Source of the DNA: Phycisphaerae bacterium
Lineage (GTDB): Bacteria > Planctomycetota > Phycisphaerae > Sedimentisphaerales > Anaerobacaceae
Assembly: GCA_012744475.1 (NCBI GenBank)
Contig: JAAYBV010000020.1
Location: forward strand, 1-35,524
DNA: 35,524 bases
Direction: 5' to 3'
Shown here: in pieces, positions 2,211 through 32,549 of the stretch
Layout: each line of letters opens with the position of its first letter
Numbering within the stretch: the first letter of the stretch is position 1
Made by a program: the position numbers and the translations under genes
The notes under the pieces: generated by a model
What the model was told of the DNA's origin: nothing
The model's database searches: none
The model's input: only the letters and a program-made list of their open reading frames with translations

Positions 2211-2317
2211 CGGGCATGCGACAGGCGCTGTTCGCAGTGGCGTCGCCAGACACTATGGTCTTCATGCTCTTACGAGCACACTACGAACGGGCCAGGTCGA
2301 TGACGGGGGCGGCGGGG
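2211..2317. repeat. 107-bp direct repeat, left copy (flanks brnTA)
   Basis: This block aligns without gaps to 3001-3107, with about seven mismatches over 107 bases. Both copies contain a family 2 palindromic element followed by the same 3' end of a minus-strand reading frame, coding for PVIDLARS and a TAG stop. In the right copy that frame is the true end of the DUF434 gene. Here it is an orphan tail that diverges after about 2317. Confidence 0.85.
2230..2288. repeat. Family 2 palindromic element, copy A
   Basis: This is a 59-bp element in reverse orientation. Its outer inverted repeats are GTTCGCAGTG (2230-2239) and CACTACGAAC (2279-2288). An inner mini-hairpin of the form TGCTCTTACGAGCA lies beside the right end. 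It differs by a few substitutions from copy B at 3020-3078 and shares its right arm with copies C and D. Confidence 0.75.
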
Positions 2318-2977: not shown

Positions 2978-2997
2978 GGGCGAGGCATGCCTCGCCC
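2978..2997. repeat. Perfect 20-bp palindrome between convergent genes
   Basis: GGGCGAGGCATGCCTCGCCC reads identically on both strands. It lies between the ends of brnA (2924) and the DUF434 gene (3071), so it could act as a weak bidirectional terminator or be another repeat unit. No T-tract follows, so intrinsic termination is not supported by the sequence alone. Confidence 0.7.
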
Positions 2998-3000
2998 TTG

Positions 3001-3107
3001 CGGGCATGCGACAGGCGCTGTTCGTAGTGGCGTCGCCAGACGCTATGGTTTGTATGCTCTTACAAGCACACTACGAACGGGCCAGGTCGATGACGGGGGC
3101 GTCGGGG
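3001..3107. repeat. 107-bp direct repeat, right copy
   Basis: This is the partner of 2211-2317. It contains family 2 element copy B and the last eleven or so codons of the DUF434 gene on the minus strand. With the left copy it brackets the brnT/brnA module at a period of 790 bases. Confidence 0.85.
3020..3078. repeat. Family 2 palindromic element, copy B
   Basis: This 59-bp element has ends GTTCGTAGTG (3020-3029) and CACTACGAAC (3069-3078). On the minus strand the terminal CGTTCGTAG supplies the final Arg, Ser and the TAG stop codon (3071-3073) of the DUF434 gene. Confidence 0.8.
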
Positions 3108-4791: not shown

Positions 4792-5074
4792 GGGCGAGGG
4801 CGGATTTCGGAGTGAGGATTGCGGATTTGGCGTGCGGAGGCGAATCGGCAATCGGAAATCTACAATTATTTGTTTCCCATCAGGTCTCATAACCTCCTCT
4901 GTGTGTTTGGTTTATCGCACCTTGCACAAGAGCGATCACAAAATATCCAACAAAATCCTGGACAGGTACTCGTGGTCGAGTACAATCTTTCGGAAATATG
5001 GTTGATAGACAATGCTGCCCTGAGGCGGCCGTGTGGGCCGTCGGGGCCCGCCGGACCTGGTTGGGAGAAAGGAT
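4792..5074. other. Spacer with a second degenerate palindrome
   Basis: At 4802-4860 the arm GGATTTCGG...GATTGCGGATT pairs imperfectly with AATCGGCAATCGGAAATC, leaving a bulge of about seven bases. This resembles the style of the palindrome at 3842-3934 but not its sequence. The two would flank the MBL gene. The rest (4861-5060) is relatively AT-rich and probably holds the promoter of the Toprim/ATPase gene, but no box pair is convincing. Confidence 0.4.
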
Positions 5075-6961
5075 ATGAATATGACCATCAGACTTGACCC
5101 GAAACAGGCCAATGCCAGGCGCGAGCTGTGTCGCATCGAGAGCCGCTTGTGCCAGGGGTCTGCCAGGGCTTCTGGCCGGGCGGACGGCGGGCGGCAGGAC
5201 GGGTCGTTCGAGACGGCGCACGAAGCGGTGGCGGATCTGGAACGGCAGCATGGCCGTCGGTCCGGCCAGTGGGCGTACTTCGACGCGGTCGGCGATCCGG
5301 CCGGCCTGATCCTGCGATGGGACCGGCCCGTGGGCAAAGAGATTCGGCCGGCCCATCGCGGGCCGGATGGACGCTGGCGGATCGGCGGGATGCCTGTGCC
5401 GCGTCCGCTGTACAACCTGCCGGCTTTGCTGGCCCGGCCGGACGAGACGGTCTACGTCGGCGAGGGCGAGAAGGTGGCCGATGCCGCCGGCCTGCTGGGG
5501 CTGCTGGGCACGACCAGCCCGCACGGCAGCGGCAGCGCCGCCAAGGCCGACTGGCGTCCTCTGGCCGGACGCGACGTCGTGCTGCTGCCGGACAACGACG
5601 AGGCGGGCCGTCGCTACGTGCAGACCGTCGCGGAGATCCTGCAAAGCCTCTATCCCCCGGCCCGCGTGCGCATCGTCGAGCTGCCCGGCCTGGAGCCCAA
5701 CGGCGATCTGTTCAACTGGGTCAACGCCGGCCAGAGCATCGATGAACGACAGAACACGCTGGCGGCCCTGGTCGAGGCGGCGGCGGTTTGCGGTGTTCCG
5801 GTTCGTAGTGTGCCCGTAAGGGCATACCCAACCACAGACGGGATAACGCCTTACGGCGTCACTACGAACGAGGTAGCGCCTTACGGCGTCACTACAGACG
5901 GGGTAACGCGTCCCGGCGTCAGTACGAACGTCGCCACCAGCGTGCCGATCCTTCAGTGCTTCGCCGACGTGGTTCCGACGTCGGTGCGGTGGCTGTGGCC
6001 GGGGCGGATCGCGATAGGCCGTCTGACGCTGCTGGTGGGCCGGCCGGGCGAGGGCAAGAGCTTCCTGACGACCGACCTGGCGGCGCGGGTCTCGACGGGC
6101 CGGCCCTGGCCCGATGGCAGCGAGGGCGTCAGCGGGTCGGTGATCTTCATCTGTGCCGAGGACGACCCGGCCGACACGCTGCGGCCGCGTCTGGACGCCC
6201 ACGGGGCGGATGTGCGACGCACGCACCTGCTGTCGATGGTCCGGCGGACCACGGCCGAGGGACGCACCTACGATGCGGCATTCACTCTGAACGACATCGA
6301 GCCGCTGGAGCGGTGTCTCCAGATGCACCCGGACTGCCGGCTGGTCGTGGTCGACCCGATCGGCTCGTACCTGGGCAGCGGGACCGACTCCTACCGCGAC
6401 AGCGACGTGCGGCTGCTGCTGGACCCTGTGGCCCGGCTGGCGGAACAGTACGGTCCGGCGGTGCTGCTCGTGGCCCACCGACGCAAGAACGCCGCCGTCG
6501 CCCATGCCGACGACCTGGCCCTGGGCAGCCGGGCGTTCACCGGGGTGGCCCGCTCCGTCTGGCATCTGATCCGCGATCCCAAGGACCGCGACCGGCGCCT
6601 GCTGCTGCCGGGCAAGAACAACTTGGCCGCCGAGGGCCAGGGCCTGGCCTTCACCATCGCCGGCGACCCGCCCGCCGTCTGCTGGCAGACCGAAGCGGTA
6701 GACATGACCGCCACCGATGCCCTCGCCGCCGAGACCGCCGGCGCCGAGTCCTCTCGCGACCGTCCGGCCCGCGACGAAGCCCAATCCTGGCTGGCCGACG
6801 TGCTCGCCGACGGACCCGTTCCCACCGCCGAGATCCGCGAAGAAGCCGAAGCCGCCGGCCTGGCCTGGCGGACCATCCAGCGCGCCCGAATCGCGCTGTC
6901 CGTTGAACCGATCCGAGGCGATGGCCGCAACGCGTGGCTCTGGCAATTGCCCGGCAAATGA
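5075..6961 (+). CDS. Toprim plus RepA/DnaB-like ATPase, orphan primase-helicase type
   Basis: The 628-residue protein joins a Toprim domain (acidic motif in YVGEGEK near residue 130, and DNDEAG near 173) to a RecA-fold hexameric-ATPase domain of the RepA/AAA_25 type. The Walker A motif GRPGEGKS lies near 322-329, FICAEDDP follows, Walker B is LVVVDPIG near 425, and LLVAHRRKN resembles the sensor-strand region. A C-terminal winged-helix-like segment (AQSWLADVLADG to the end) is typical of these proteins in phages and integrated elements, where they act in replication initiation or helicase loading. No integrase, capsid or terminase gene is nearby, so it looks like a remnant or a domesticated copy. 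ATG 5075 follows GGGAG seven bases upstream; an in-frame start at 5033 is less likely. Residues 243-286 are encoded by an inserted palindromic element (see 5801-5930). Confidence 0.8.
   Translation: MNMTIRLDPKQANARRELCRIESRLCQGSARASGRADGGRQDGSFETAHEAVADLERQHGRRSGQWAYFDAVGDPAGLILRWDRPVGKEIRPAHRGPDGRWRIGGMPVPRPLYNLPALLARPDETVYVGEGEKVADAAGLLGLLGTTSPHGSGSAAKADWRPLAGRDVVLLPDNDEAGRRYVQTVAEILQSLYPPARVRIVELPGLEPNGDLFNWVNAGQSIDERQNTLAALVEAAAVCGVPVRSVPVRAYPTTDGITPYGVTTNEVAPYGVTTDGVTRPGVSTNVATSVPILQCFADVVPTSVRWLWPGRIAIGRLTLLVGRPGEGKSFLTTDLAARVSTGRPWPDGSEGVSGSVIFICAEDDPADTLRPRLDAHGADVRRTHLLSMVRRTTAEGRTYDAAFTLNDIEPLERCLQMHPDCRLVVVDPIGSYLGSGTDSYRDSDVRLLLDPVARLAEQYGPAVLLVAHRRKNAAVAHADDLALGSRAFTGVARSVWHLIRDPKDRDRRLLLPGKNNLAAEGQGLAFTIAGDPPAVCWQTEAVDMTATDALAAETAGAESSRDRPARDEAQSWLADVLADGPVPTAEIREEAEAAGLAWRTIQRARIALSVEPIRGDGRNAWLWQLPGK
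5801..5869. repeat. Family 2 palindromic element, copy C, inside a coding region
   Basis: This 69-bp element runs from GTTCGTAGTG (5801-5810) to CACTACGAAC (5860-5869). Its inner mini-hairpins are TGCCCGTAAGGGCA and ACGCCTTACGGCGT. It is in frame in the Toprim/ATPase gene and encodes RSVPVRAYPTTDGITPYG and a few following residues, forming the linker between the Toprim and ATPase domains. Confidence 0.85.
5840..5929. repeat. Three tandem 30-bp repeats, in frame
   Basis: Units 5840-5869, 5870-5899 and 5900-5929 are tandem copies of the right arm of element C. They encode GITPYGVTTN, EVAPYGVTTD and GVTRPGVSTN. The period is a multiple of three, so the reading frame is kept. The third unit is the most diverged. 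Confidence 0.9.
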
Positions 6962-6971
6962 CGCGCTCCTG

Positions 6972-7024
6972 ATGGCGTGCCACGTGCCAACAACAGGGGT
7001 GTCTGATGGCACGTGGCACGCCAT
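6972..7024. repeat. Family 1 long-hairpin palindrome, copy 2
   Basis: Arms 6972-6989 and 7007-7024 (ATGGCGTGCCACGTGCCA and its complement) form a perfect 18-bp stem with a 17-nt loop. It begins 11 bases after the Toprim/ATPase stop codon, upstream of the EVE-nuclease gene. It could terminate the upstream message, but there is no T-tract. Confidence 0.9.
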
Positions 7025-7094
7025 CGCGGTCGTCGGGGCTACGAATCGGAAACCCACACATGTGGGACTGTGCTGGTTGACTACCGGCGCCTTG

Positions 7095-7123: not shown

Positions 7124-7233
7124 AGTGAGAGCAGACTATCGCTCGGAGACGTTTCCAGATGGGTCGGGTGCAGAAGAGCATCATGCAGCACCCGGGAACG
7201 AGATTTGTCGTCTGTAAGGGAGCTTCGCACACC

Positions 7234-8337
7234 ATGAATTACTGGACCGATCTATTCACACCCGAGACGTATGAAGCATTCAGCCGTTCCGATCGTTCCA
7301 TCTCCGGTTTTCGCGAATCTCAGCGAGGAATGGCAGCCAGAGTGCGTCCCGGGGACAAGTTCATCTGCTATATGGTCAGAATGTCTCGTTGGATCGGTAT
7401 CCTCGAAGTGGTCGACGGGCCGTTCATGGACGACAAGCCCATATTCGTTCCAGAAGACGATCCCTTTGTCGTGCGTTTCAAGGTCCAGCCCACCGTGTGG
7501 CTGCATAGCGAACACACCGTACCGATGCGAGAACCCGAGGTATTCTCACATCTGACTTTTACGCGCGATGTTGAGTCGGGCGGTTATTGGCTCGGTCCAC
7601 TCCGTCGAAGCTTACAGAAGTTGAACGAAGCGGATGGTGAATTCCTGGAAGCGCTTCTTCACCGACAACAAGAGGAACAGAAACCCTTTGAGCTGGATCG
7701 AGATCAGTATGACAGGGCGTTGAAGCGTCGAATTCAACGGGTGGAGGGCTCAGTTGTCGTCAGCGTCCCAGACGACAGCCATGAGGATGGAGTTGCGATC
7801 CAACACCCTTCGACGGACCGCGAGTCAATCCGCATACAAGCGGACTTGTGCCGTATCGGAGAGGCGATGGGTCTGAAGATATGGCTCCCGATGGCTGACA
7901 GGTCGAGAGTTACGGAATTCTGGACGCCGCAGACAGGAGTTCTTCTGGAACGTCTTCCGTTGAACTATGATGAGACAACGCTCGATACAGTCATGCGTAT
8001 CGACGTCCTGTGGCTCAAAGGCCGAGCCATTACCCGGGCCTTTGAGATTGAGCACACAACGGCGATTTATTCCGGCCTCCTTCGAATGGCAGACCTGTGT
8101 GCTCTCTTGCCGAACATCAATGTCTCATTGCATATCGTTGCCCCGGAAACACGACGTGATAAGGTGTTCCAGGAGATCACACGCCCGGTGTTCTCCCTTC
8201 TGGAGCATTCGCCGCTTTCAGAACGATGCACGTATCTTTCGTACGACAGTGTCCATGAACTGACCAAACTGCAGTACTTGGCGCACACGACCGACAGCGT
8301 TCTTGACGAATTCGTCGAATATGCCGACAGCATGTAG
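7234..8337 (+). CDS. EVE-domain protein with probable PD-(D/E)XK nuclease domain
   Basis: The 367-residue protein opens with an EVE domain (PUA superfamily): MNYWTDLFTPETYEAF, then GMAARVRPGDKFICYM and RWIGILEVV, ending near residue 110-135. EVE and related folds bind modified bases. After a charged linker, the C-terminal half holds an acidic cluster compatible with a PD-(D/E)XK nuclease core: Asp257 in MRIDVLWLKG, then Glu271-x-Glu273 in AFEIEHTT, followed by a helix SGLLRMADLCALLPNI. The canonical Lys is Glu here. A base-modification reader joined to a nuclease suggests a type IV-like, modification-dependent restriction enzyme acting against modified phage DNA (inference). ATG 7234 begins exactly at the EVE fold and has AAGGGAG upstream; ATGs at 7159 and 7183 would add sequence unlike the family. 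Codon use looks less GC-biased than that of the neighbours, hinting at transfer. Two copies of one palindrome flank it. Confidence 0.75.
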   Translation: MNYWTDLFTPETYEAFSRSDRSISGFRESQRGMAARVRPGDKFICYMVRMSRWIGILEVVDGPFMDDKPIFVPEDDPFVVRFKVQPTVWLHSEHTVPMREPEVFSHLTFTRDVESGGYWLGPLRRSLQKLNEADGEFLEALLHRQQEEQKPFELDRDQYDRALKRRIQRVEGSVVVSVPDDSHEDGVAIQHPSTDRESIRIQADLCRIGEAMGLKIWLPMADRSRVTEFWTPQTGVLLERLPLNYDETTLDTVMRIDVLWLKGRAITRAFEIEHTTAIYSGLLRMADLCALLPNINVSLHIVAPETRRDKVFQEITRPVFSLLEHSPLSERCTYLSYDSVHELTKLQYLAHTTDSVLDEFVEYADSM

Positions 8338-8368
8338 GCTTTGATTGTGTTCGATGAGCCGGTTACGG

Positions 8369-8421
8369 ATGGCGTGCCACGTGCCAACAACAGGGGTGTG
8401 TGTTGGCACGTGGCACGCCAT
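8369..8421. repeat. Family 1 long-hairpin palindrome, copy 3
   Basis: Arms 8369-8389 and 8401-8421 are perfectly complementary over 21 bp around the loop ACAGGGGTGTG. It starts 31 bases after the EVE-nuclease stop codon. With copy 2 it brackets that gene in direct orientation. Confidence 0.92.
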
Positions 8422-8466
8422 CGTGTGCGCGGGCGGATCATCATTCGGCACTGCGGGTCGGGGGGA

Positions 8467-30101: not shown

Positions 30102-31445
30102 ATGGGCAGCGACAGAAAGACATCGAGAAGGCAGTTCGTCCAATCGGCCACCGGCGCGATCGCCGCGTTCACGATCGTTCCGCGTCACGTCCTGGGGCAG
30201 GGGCAGACTCCCCCCAGCGACAAGCTCAACGTCGCCTGCATCGGCGTCGGGGGGCGAGGCGGCGCCAGTGTCGACGGGAGCAGGAACGAGAACATCGTGG
30301 CGATGTGCGACGTGGACAGTCGCCGGGCCGCGGGGGCCTTCACGAGTTTCCCCAAGGCGAAGAAATATCGCGACTACCGCAAGCTGTTCGATGAGATGGG
30401 CGACCGGATCGACGCGGTGACCGTTGCCACGCCCGACCACACGCACGCCGTAGTCGCTATGGAGGCAATCCGGCGGGGCAAGCACGTCTACTGCGAGAAA
30501 CCGCTGGCCCATTCGATTCACGAGGTCCGTACCCTGATGAGGGCGGCCCGCGAGCACAAGGTGGTCACGCAGCTCGGCAATCAGGGCCATTCCTACGACA
30601 CGATTCGGATGTTCTGCGAATGGATTTGGGATGGGGCCATCGGCAACGTTACGGAGGTCCACGCTGCGTGTGGTTCGGTCTACAGCGCCATCGACAATCT
30701 GTCGAAGCTCCAGGAGAAGCACGAGATTCCGGCCGAGCTGGACTGGGACCTGTGGCTGGGGCCGGCAAAACATCGGCCGTACCATCCGATGTACGTGCCG
30801 GGCACGTGGCGACGCTGGATGCCGTTCGGCTGCGGCGTCATCGGCGACTGGGTCTGCCACGTGGTCGATCCGGTCTTCTGGGCCCTCGACCTTGGCGCTC
30901 CCAAGACGGTCCAGGCCCGGGCAAAAGACTATGACCCCAAGGCTCATGGCGACACATTCCCCAAAGGCACCGTTGTGACCTACGGGTTCGAGGCCAAGGG
31001 CAATCGCGGTCCGGTCAGGCTCGTCTGGCATGATGGGGTCGAGACGATCCCGCGACCGGACGACCTGGAACCCGGGCGGGAGGTGCCCGGCACGGGGGCG
31101 ATTGTCATCGGGGACAAGGGCAAGATCATGTACGGCTCGCACGGGGCCGGCAGTTTGCGGATCTTCCCCGAGGAGAAGATGAGGGTCTACAAGCAGCCGG
31201 CCAGGACGCTGCCGCGCGTGAAGGACCACTTCGTCGACTGGCTCGATGCGATCAAGAGCGGCAGACGGGCCGGCTCGCACTTCGACTACGGCGGGCCGCT
31301 CACGGAGATCGCGCTGCTGGGCATCATTGCGACGAAGATGCTGGGCGAGAAACTCGAATGGGACGGTCCGAACATGCGGTTCGCCAATTCCGAGCAGGCC
31401 AATCAGTATCTCAATCCTCCCTATCGCGAGGGCTGGACGCTGTGA
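30102..31445 (+). CDS. Gfo/Idh/MocA oxidoreductase with twin-arginine leader
   Basis: The 447-residue protein has a Tat signal (SRRQFVQSATGAIAAFTIVP), a Rossmann site (VACIGVGGRGGASVDG) and the EKP catalytic lysine motif (YCEKPLAHSIHEV). Its second domain is of the planctomycete type (DLWLGPAKHRPYHPMYVPGT, then GCGVIGDWVCHVVDPVFW). It is predicted to act on sugars in the periplasm with a tightly bound NAD(P). ATG 30102 follows GAGGTG; the frame is open far upstream but that stretch overlaps the divergent promoters and the other Gfo/Idh gene. It is related to but clearly different from its divergent neighbour. Its stop lies three bases before a family 2 palindromic element, and it is convergent with the URO-D gene. 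Confidence 0.92.
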   Translation: MGSDRKTSRRQFVQSATGAIAAFTIVPRHVLGQGQTPPSDKLNVACIGVGGRGGASVDGSRNENIVAMCDVDSRRAAGAFTSFPKAKKYRDYRKLFDEMGDRIDAVTVATPDHTHAVVAMEAIRRGKHVYCEKPLAHSIHEVRTLMRAAREHKVVTQLGNQGHSYDTIRMFCEWIWDGAIGNVTEVHAACGSVYSAIDNLSKLQEKHEIPAELDWDLWLGPAKHRPYHPMYVPGTWRRWMPFGCGVIGDWVCHVVDPVFWALDLGAPKTVQARAKDYDPKAHGDTFPKGTVVTYGFEAKGNRGPVRLVWHDGVETIPRPDDLEPGREVPGTGAIVIGDKGKIMYGSHGAGSLRIFPEEKMRVYKQPARTLPRVKDHFVDWLDAIKSGRRAGSHFDYGGPLTEIALLGIIATKMLGEKLEWDGPNMRFANSEQANQYLNPPYREGWTL

Positions 31446-31448
31446 CCC

Positions 31449-31516
31449 GCTTGTAGTGTGCCCGTAAGGGCATACTTCCCGTCGAGCGCGTAACGCCTTA
31501 AGGCGTCACCACGAAC
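31449..31516. repeat. Family 2 palindromic element, copy D
   Basis: This 68-bp element has ends GCTTGTAGTG (31449-31458) and CACCACGAAC (31507-31516). Its mini-hairpins are TGCCCGTAAGGGCA and ACGCCTTAAGGCGT. It fills the space between two convergent genes. On the minus strand its right end encodes the last residues of the URO-D protein and its TGA stop (31506-31508). It may act as a bidirectional terminator. Confidence 0.85.
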
Positions 31517-32549
31517 GGCGTCGAAGCTCGTCGGCGATCAGGCAGCCTTCGCAGGGGCAGAAGGCGCGCAGGTTCGCCTCCGGCGTCCCGGGCGGGACTT
31601 CGCAGCCGGGCTGAAGGATGAACTTCGCCCCCGCCGATGCGATACAATTTCGCGCCGCTTGGGCGACGTCTTCGGGCGTGCCCTGGAGCAACACGGCGCT
31701 TGGGTCGAAATTGCCGGCCAGCGTGATGTCGGGACCGACCGCCTCGCGCGCTGCGGCAAGCGAGACCATCCAGTCGACGTCGATGATGTCGGCGCCGGTC
31801 CGGGCCATCAAGGCGATGTTGTTGGCGATGTTGCCGCAGATGTGAAGCTTGACCGTCGCGCCCGCTTCGTGAATGGCGTCGATCAGCTTCTTCTCGAACG
31901 GCAGCACGTACTGCTCGTACATGGCGGGATTGATAAGGCTGGCGACCGCATCGCCCATGCCGATCATGTCCGCGCCGGCATCGATCTGGGCTCGTGCGAA
32001 ACGGATCGCGTTGTCGATGAGGATGCCGGCGGCCTGGACGTACATCTCGGGCTTGTCGATCAGGTCCATGAACGTGTTCTCGACGCCCCGCAGGTCGGCG
32101 TACTCGGCGATGGGGCCCTCGACCCAGCCGAGAACGCTGTGGGTCGCGCCGACGGCTTGGGCCATCTTGCGGACGCTCTCGATACGTTGCCTGGGACGCT
32201 CCGCCTTCTCGATCTCAAACGGCGCAAGCCGTGCGACGTCGTCGGGGGTCTGAATCAGCATTCCCCTGGGTTTGCCGACGCCGTCGGGCGGATAGTCGAA
32301 CTCCATCCCATAGGCGGACGCTTCGCGCCAGGGATCGCTGATCGCGCTGGCCTGGTCGAGGCCGAACGCGTGCGTCACCGCCAGTTGCGATTCGACCAGG
32401 ACGTCACCGTCGAGGTAGTAATCCCGATAGGTGTGTCCAATGAAGCTGGCGGACCAAGCCATGAAGATTGGTGTCACGGCCCGCCGATCGACGGGTTGGC
32501 CTCGCAGGGTCGCGTAGATTCGCTCTTTCGGTGTCATCACGGTCTCCAT
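31506..32549 (-). CDS. Uroporphyrinogen-decarboxylase-fold protein (methyltransferase-like)
   Basis: The 347-residue protein has the URO-D/MtaA/CmuA fold, a TIM barrel used both in haem synthesis and in corrinoid methyl transfer. The metal-type residues His-x-Cys in KLHICGN and Cys in QPGCEVPPGTP match the zinc site of the methyltransferase branch (MtaA, CmuA) and not true HemE, which lacks this pair. DMIGMGDAVASLINPAMYEQ is typical of the branch. The substrate is unknown, and members near sugar-oxidation genes are frequent in Planctomycetota. ATG 32549 has GGGAG six bases upstream; the in-frame TTG 32552 and ATG 32537 are alternatives. The last residues, RRRSW, and the stop come from palindromic element D. 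Confidence 0.85.
   Translation of the reverse strand: METVMTPKERIYATLRGQPVDRRAVTPIFMAWSASFIGHTYRDYYLDGDVLVESQLAVTHAFGLDQASAISDPWREASAYGMEFDYPPDGVGKPRGMLIQTPDDVARLAPFEIEKAERPRQRIESVRKMAQAVGATHSVLGWVEGPIAEYADLRGVENTFMDLIDKPEMYVQAAGILIDNAIRFARAQIDAGADMIGMGDAVASLINPAMYEQYVLPFEKKLIDAIHEAGATVKLHICGNIANNIALMARTGADIIDVDWMVSLAAAREAVGPDITLAGNFDPSAVLLQGTPEDVAQAARNCIASAGAKFILQPGCEVPPGTPEANLRAFCPCEGCLIADELRRRSW

Follow-up and report, generated by a model that had tools for sequence, protein, structure and literature searches.

A REPIN-like palindromic element, tandemly expanded and in frame, in a planctomycete Toprim/AAA_25 gene

Background

How a palindrome that is dispersed and non-coding elsewhere in a genome might come to be read as part of a protein is the question raised by a single gene in the 35,524 nt stretch of DNA analysed here (the window), which comprises positions 1 to 35,524 of contig JAAYBV010000020.1 of a Phycisphaerae bacterium (assembly GCA_012744475.1). 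An earlier note on this DNA had described a palindromic element lying in frame in a Toprim/ATPase gene, its right arm copied to three 30 bp units, and had likened the case to the palindromic elements of Rickettsia.

Anatomy of the insert and its host gene

The host gene (5075-6961, forward strand; alternative GTG start at 5033) encodes a primase/helicase-like protein with Toprim and AAA_25 domains. The Pfam match to AAA_25 is strong (E = 5.6e-37), that to Toprim_2 falls below threshold (20.4 bits against a cut-off of 22.1), and phage primase/helicase families are among the profile matches; the product is a probable DNA-replication protein. A profile search of the PDB (E <= 1e-5) found no relative. 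Downstream, at 7159-8337, lies a gene with a sub-threshold match to the EVE domain, and similar DNA follows the orthologous gene of Phycisphaerales bacterium Planc_01 (G004). Palindromes of a third family, TGGCGTGCCACGTGCCAACA-11 nt-TGTTGGCACGTGGCACGCCA, occur in the window at 2149-2204, 6971-7026 and 8368-8423, and also adjoin the G004 orthologue.

As delimited by comparing linker lengths with those of homologues, the insert occupies 5801-5929 (forward strand), preceded by a CCG codon and followed by a GTC codon. Its 129 bp form 43 codons without a stop, reading VRSVPVRAYPTTDGITPYGVTTNEVAPYGVTTDGVTRPGVSTN (residues 243-285, numbered from the ATG at 5075), and it lies in frame between the Toprim and AAA_25 domains, just as had been claimed. 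The first 69 bp (5801-5869, forward strand) constitute the palindrome itself. Its left half (5801-5828, forward) consists of GTTC-GTAG-TG and a TGCCC/GGGCA stem with the loop GTAA, and its right half (5843-5869, forward) of an ACGCC/GGCGT stem with the loop TTAC and the tail CACTACGAAC. Within the outer arms, GTTCGTAGTG at 5801-5810 and CACTACGAAC at 5860-5869, there are thus two small hairpins, TGCCC-GTAA-GGGCA and ACGCC-TTAC-GGCGT, while the spacer preceding the first right half, ACCACAGACGGG, resembles the tail of another unit. Two extra right-half units of 30 bp follow on the same strand, one at 5870-5899 encoding EVAPYGVTTD, the other at 5900-5929 encoding GVTRPGVSTN and ending in the tail variant CAGTACGAAC. 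Tandem Repeats Finder (minimum score 50) reports this as the sole array of the window, spanning 5844-5930 with a period of 30, 2.9 copies and 80% matches. The right arm has been multiplied with a period of 30 bp, as the earlier note had it, but the first of its three units belongs to the palindrome, so only two are extra.

When 5801-5930 is folded as single-stranded DNA, its stability (z = -4.1) is equalled by none of 200 dinucleotide shuffles, and in the predicted fold the hairpins of the two extra units are weaker and partial. On each strand of the bare 69 bp element, frame 0 is the sole frame free of stops. A target-site duplication of the kind that marks MITEs was looked for by eye; the window insert is bordered by no direct repeat, and an insert in MnmE described below by none longer than 2 bp.

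Structure prediction for the host protein (11 sequences) gave a mean pLDDT of 67.8 and a pTM of 0.42, with values of 77-93 for most of residues 41-240 and below 50 at residues 240-287; helix and strand are absent from the insert. The 43-residue insert is predicted from this model to be disordered, and on the simplest reading it would be a spacer that the Toprim/AAA_25 protein tolerates.

Identity and distribution of the element

Both halves of the palindrome combine GTTC-GTAG-TG with a hairpin of 5 bp stem and 4 nt loop. They are inverted with respect to one another, head to head, and together form one hairpin in which, in the predicted fold, the GTAG tag itself pairs with its partner. Because the halves share this GTTC-GTAG-TG-hairpin plan, are inverted and have unlike stems, the element can be identified, on sequence grounds, as a head-to-head heterodimer of GTAG-tagged REPs, that is, a REPIN. 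It is also dispersed, in many copies found mainly outside genes. Run on the own genome (G000), a covariance model built from six copies, including all four in the window, gave 102 matches (E <= 0.1), or 93 places once strands were merged; the high score of the window insert (E = 1.1e-17) arises by construction, since window copies were used in the model.

The three other copies in the window are A (2227-2291, reverse strand) and B (3017-3081, reverse strand), both outside genes, and D (31446-31519, forward strand), which abuts the stop codon of an open frame ending at 31445. None of the three has coding usage on both sides, which bears out the earlier statement that the same DNA is non-coding elsewhere in the window. 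Copies A and B are contained in direct repeats of 116 bp (2202-2317 and 2992-3107, 92% alike) that flank a BrnT toxin gene (2453-2746, E = 7.9e-29).

A search of related genomes, which the earlier note had proposed, found the element at E <= 0.001 in 6 of the 46 genomes searched: G012, and five of the six genus g1 species covered, the own species among them. Around g32, the sister genus rich in REPINs, it was present in five of six genomes when up to 150 candidates were scored in each: at least 96 matches in G036, at least 73 in G107, at least 97 in G108, at least 43 in G104 and at least one in G106, with none among the candidates scored in G089. In the own genome and in its relatives alike, there are therefore many copies outside the family of the host gene. 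Within the open PMC library, as judged by title, abstract or available text, no report of this REPIN family or of the host gene was found.

Search for a cognate transposase

Matches to the Y1_Tnp domain numbered one in the own genome, 127 in 38 of the 46 genomes, and 26 in five g32 genomes. For 43 of the 45 matches in REPIN-bearing genomes (17 of the 19 in the six such genomes among the 46, and all 26 from g32), the surroundings were scanned with the REPIN model, the matches at G005 C13 and G012 C7 being left out and contig ends cutting some stretches short. No strong REPIN lay within about 0.46 kb of any of the 43 matches scanned; the nearest were at L331 (a broken gene), L333 (0.52 kb) and L321 (0.78 kb). 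Nor did these 43 matches, or a half-REP scan that also took in the 29 loci L090-L118, include a clear RAYT with the window REP alongside, a pairing that is usual for such REPs but not universal. Between neighbouring REPINs of the own genome no transposase was recognised by eye in seven intervals, the interval in the window being compared with Pfam.

The best lead, a weak one, is a Y1_Tnp match in a 330-aa frame of G004 (locus L131, contig C158), about 0.24 kb from a weak REPIN match (L131 1721-1780; 16.5 bits, E = 0.06) that by eye looks like a decayed REPIN. The RAYT-like Y1_Tnp gene of the own genome is enclosed by 34 nt inverted repeats (L005 1261-1294 and 1990-2023, 91% complementary) whose sequence is unlike the REPIN, an arrangement reminiscent of the TIR-flanked genes in the available text of PMC3733652. 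Separately, weak-scoring Y1_Tnp genes of 195-241 aa in G002, G004 and G107 (L120 2985, L121 703, L338 1928 and 2134) lie near a GTAG palindrome, CGTAGGGTG..., and the two may form a RAYT/REP pair of a different family. The agent moving the window element would presumably be a REP-specific transposase that acts in trans or has been lost.

REPINs inside and outside genes

Coding context in the own genome was assessed for the best 71 of the 93 places (E <= 7.7e-5; the 22 weaker ones were left out), and coding usage was clear on both sides in one frame at a single place, the window insert. One of the weaker places outside these 71 (L167 947-1018, contig C2) is a decayed REPIN reading VRSAPLRAYGPEGIASDGAGTN (VRSAPLRAY...) near the start of an RCC1-repeat protein, 3' of a hydrophobic, signal-like stretch. 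For g32, at least 310 strand-counted matches yielded 109 distinct places with enough flank, the array in the g32 homologue of the host gene (locus L184) being excluded; 18 of the 109 passed the in-gene test, whereas 175 of 216 displaced control windows did so. REPINs avoid genes. Among the other species with matches in the search of 46 genomes, one of 21 full-flank loci passed a loose test (L067, 0.03/0.11; left out) and four loci were too short; an element in a 362-aa frame of G001 (contig C324) was rejected, coding signal being absent on either side.

Twelve of the 109 places in g32 lie in frame in genes and read VRSVPVRAY or a near variant. Ten of these 12 proteins carry Pfam domains (E <= 1e-5), namely MnmE, GH106, RsmB, an iron-sulphur flavoprotein, ALGX, NuoCD, DUF4139, ThuA, a proton antiporter subunit and DUF6298, compared with none of the six candidates in other readings. 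Those six (five in the reverse reading, and L257 in another forward frame) were set aside as probable antisense shadows because of their lack of a Pfam match. Where coding usage extended up to both ends of an element, the frame was kept in 16 of 20 cases (expected one third, p = 2.5e-5), Pfam support not extending to all of the 20, nor to all of the 16.

All eight in-gene REPINs with both flanks callable share one orientation (8:0), as against 28:8 for the other g32 REPINs with co-directional flanks (p = 0.32). As these ratios are not distinguishable, a common reading is in itself no proof of selection on the peptide, and reading direction was rejected as a sign of such selection, other g32 REPINs being oriented alike. 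The MnmE insert, in G104, is located in a stretch of variable length. At the same place in the mnmE gene of G106 (L427) there is what by eye is a decayed REPIN (..STPHGVATNE), and the insert appears, by eye, to have been retained in frame across the two species.

Recurrent expansion of the linker

Alignment with homologues that lack the element, another step the earlier note had suggested, locates the insertion through the length of the linker. In a paralogue on contig C148 of G004 the linker has 11 residues (LVDAA-SPIDASEVLGG-PILTC); in the window gene it has 11 + 43 (LVEAA-AVCGVP-[43]-VATSV-PILQC) and in the G004 orthologue 11 + 23. Among planctomycete homologues that possess both domains, the stretch from PDND to WLW spans 90-110 residues in seven without insert, a set to which the non-planctomycete homologues L205 (76 residues) and L229 (100) do not belong, and 118-157 in four that are expanded: 118 in L183, 142 in L188, 157 in L184 and 138 in the window. 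The linker motif caught none of seven viral-contig relatives.

The closest relative of the window gene, the G004 orthologue (L183, 80% identity), has no member of the window's REPIN family in its linker. Instead, at the same codon and after the same GTTCCGG, it carries another kind of GTAG palindrome, TAGGGGCGAACAAGCATTCGCCC, together with a short tandem duplication. The pattern of this second palindrome has 81 strand-counted matches in G004 and 134 in the own genome, backward-pattern controls giving 0 and 1 respectively. A suspected REPIN remnant in the G004 linker was rejected, as 2 of 300 shuffles reached its score and the match is partly shared flank. The search yielded no truly empty allele of the window gene, the nearest relative having this other insert.

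A homologue from Planctomycetota bacterium AS27yjCOA_53 (L184; genome G104, also G061), whose product is 56% identical to that of the window gene, contains the same left half followed by four 30 bp right-half units, which alternate between ATAACG and ATACCG as if a 60 bp pair had been duplicated. In the fourth expanded gene (L188, G036) the linker aligns to the right-half array with a score of 19.5, the best of 300 shuffles reaching 16.5; in all, 22 such tests were made on 11 linkers in which no REPIN is obvious. The L188 linker probably holds a decayed right-half array. These comparisons show the Toprim/AAA_25 linker to be a recurrent insertion site in related species.

Whether recurrence reflects more than tolerance deserves weighing. 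The linker might be a preferred landing site for REPs, targeted for instance through single-stranded DNA structure, or its lengthening might be selected because a longer hinge helps; we consider this a tentative alternative. All four expanded linkers among the 11 planctomycete homologues measured contain REP material (G000 and G104 have REPIN arrays, G004 the second dispersed palindrome and G036 the probably decayed array), although the G036 match comes from that series of 22 tests, the insertion points are unlike and seven homologues have no insert at all. Of the 71 REPINs assessed in the own genome, the sole one clearly within a gene is the window copy, and replication and repair genes are frequent hosts of in-gene REPs according to the available text of PMC3733652, yet insertions would simply survive in a disordered, poorly conserved linker. 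In its strongest form the proposal would make the linker a true hotspot, in which GTAG palindromes from two unrelated families were captured on at least three separate occasions within one 36 nt stretch and two of these captures independently became 30 bp decapeptide arrays, through targeting or selection for a long, variable hinge; this we regard as possible rather than probable.

One origin or several

The earlier note had held that a decapeptide linker in distant orthologues would refute the insertion reading. Such a linker does exist, in L184 with its four units, but this reading is judged not to be overturned, because the L184 genome contains REPINs of its own, the spacer of either insert is that typical of its genus, the insertion points are offset and the two genes belong to separate supported clades. 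In the tree, the window gene groups with the G004 orthologue (100/100), and this pair is joined by the insert-free genes of G106 and G107 (G107b) (100/99), while G036 and G104 form a clade of their own (100/100); deeper forks are open. The offset is of five codons (15 nt) within a stretch of 12 residues (36 nt). After the left stem, the spacer of REPINs in the own genome is ATAC in 21 of 29 and ATAT in none, whereas in g32 the figures, inserts included, are 65 of 90 for ATAT and 5 of 90 for ATAC; the window insert has ATAC and the L184 insert ATAT. On account of tree, insertion point and spacer type, separate insertions are favoured over common descent as the more probable.

The alternative, that a REPIN with its tandem units predates the split of the genera and was lost or overwritten in G004, G106, G107 and others, must be reckoned unlikely, since the insert-free genes join the window clade and each array differs from the other in position and in spacer. 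What the two intact arrays have in common is the left half, the 30 bp period, the GAACGAG junctions and the tail CAGTACGAAC of the last unit. This rare tail occurs in 2 of 662 distinct half tails from the loci analysed, closing the last unit of each coding array and found nowhere else, and hints at common descent of both. The sister gene in G036 probably keeps a decayed array (its score matched in none of 300 shuffles), and such arrays can therefore persist for long.

Formation of the array and proposed mechanism

Tandem half units are also found outside the coding arrays, at a spacing of 30 in L067, L076 and L147, 29 in L013 and L413, 28 in L014 (three times) and L142 (once), 27 in L169 and 34 in L078. 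Duplication of half units is therefore a habit of the REPIN family. In the two coding arrays all five junctions are of exactly 30 bp, and the reading frame may act as a filter on the period; the copying process would be slippage or unequal recombination.

It could be argued that the insert acts as nucleic acid, its hairpin in the mRNA stalling ribosomes or shielding the message, with the peptide as a by-product. The fold of 5801-5930 is indeed stable as single-stranded DNA, and many REPs outside genes are proposed to be RNA elements in the available text of PMC3733652; the extra units, however, are the weaker and partial hairpins, and it is the 30 bp period that is kept in the coding arrays, making such a role very unlikely. 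That the insert is a chance repeat, a misassembly or part of a dead gene is extremely improbable and largely refuted, for while the analysis draws on draft assemblies, in which short arrays can be misassembled (the own genome is in 118 contigs), the same architecture occurs in an independent assembly of another species, and the gene is open over 628 codons with coding-like usage on both flanks of the insert and its conserved residues retained.

The explanation we prefer is that one of the REPINs dispersed through the own genome was inserted, end to end, in the short Toprim/AAA_25 linker. The insertion would have fallen in the single stop-free frame of the element, reading VRSVPVRAY...GVTTN, so that the gene stayed open. 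The right half would then have been copied head to tail, with slippage or unequal recombination at the hairpin as the probable process, and owing to the 30 bp period the frame would have been kept. The product, if translated as expected, would be a disordered spacer of 43 residues that the protein tolerates at little or no cost to fitness. On other occasions REPs would have hit the same linker in related species, and single in-frame REPINs are present in other proteins of the REPIN-rich g32. Taken as a whole, insertion of an own REPIN, multiplication of its right half and tolerance of the spacer form an account that we hold to be probable.

Whether REPs within genes are tolerated, aimed or used is a matter only argued in the available text of PMC3733652, and the recurrence in this linker offers a concrete case for asking it. 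Non-coding mobile DNA turning into protein can here be followed through apparent stages, from free copies and single in-frame inserts in many proteins to clean decapeptide arrays and, in a sister gene, an array that has probably decayed. Related species with similar events in the same hinge provide a natural test of this process.

Comparison with known systems

The Rickettsia palindromic elements (RPE) are palindromes that lie in frame in unrelated proteins. The REPINs described here resemble them in behaviour, occurring in frame in unrelated proteins that include housekeeping ones (MnmE, RsmB, NuoCD, ALGX, ThuA, GH106 and others). The earlier comparison with Rickettsia is hence apt as to how the element works, and needs amending as to what it is, since it can be identified as a GTAG REP dimer, a member of a known super-family of which copies inside genes have been published (PMC3733652). 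RPE-4 and RPE-6 are themselves treated alongside CGTC and GTAG REPs in that paper.

REPINs as described by Bertels and Rainey (2011; PMC3116915) are REP doublets that form one hairpin and are dispersed, and tandem REP arrays are described there too. The window element corresponds to these as far as the available text goes, though no clear RAYT flanked by the same REP was found among the Y1_Tnp matches scanned.

The closest parallel is with the GTAG REPs of Di Nocera et al. (2013; PMC3733652), in which a GTAG tag stands beside a short-loop hairpin, at one end of a palindrome of 20-40 bp, and inverted dimers have unlike stems. These are mostly between genes, with some inside; in-gene clusters encode 43-82 residues, and recB of two Xanthomonas species contains unlike REPs at about the same site. 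REPs in genes, groups of them within genes and different REPs at one recB site are thus already published, and it is argued there that in-gene REPs may be neutral. For this planctomycete family, no description of the present sequence family was found in the available text of that paper. In its tag, its heterodimeric structure, its in-gene cluster and its recurrence at a shared site, the window insert is nonetheless like the GTAG REPs reported there.
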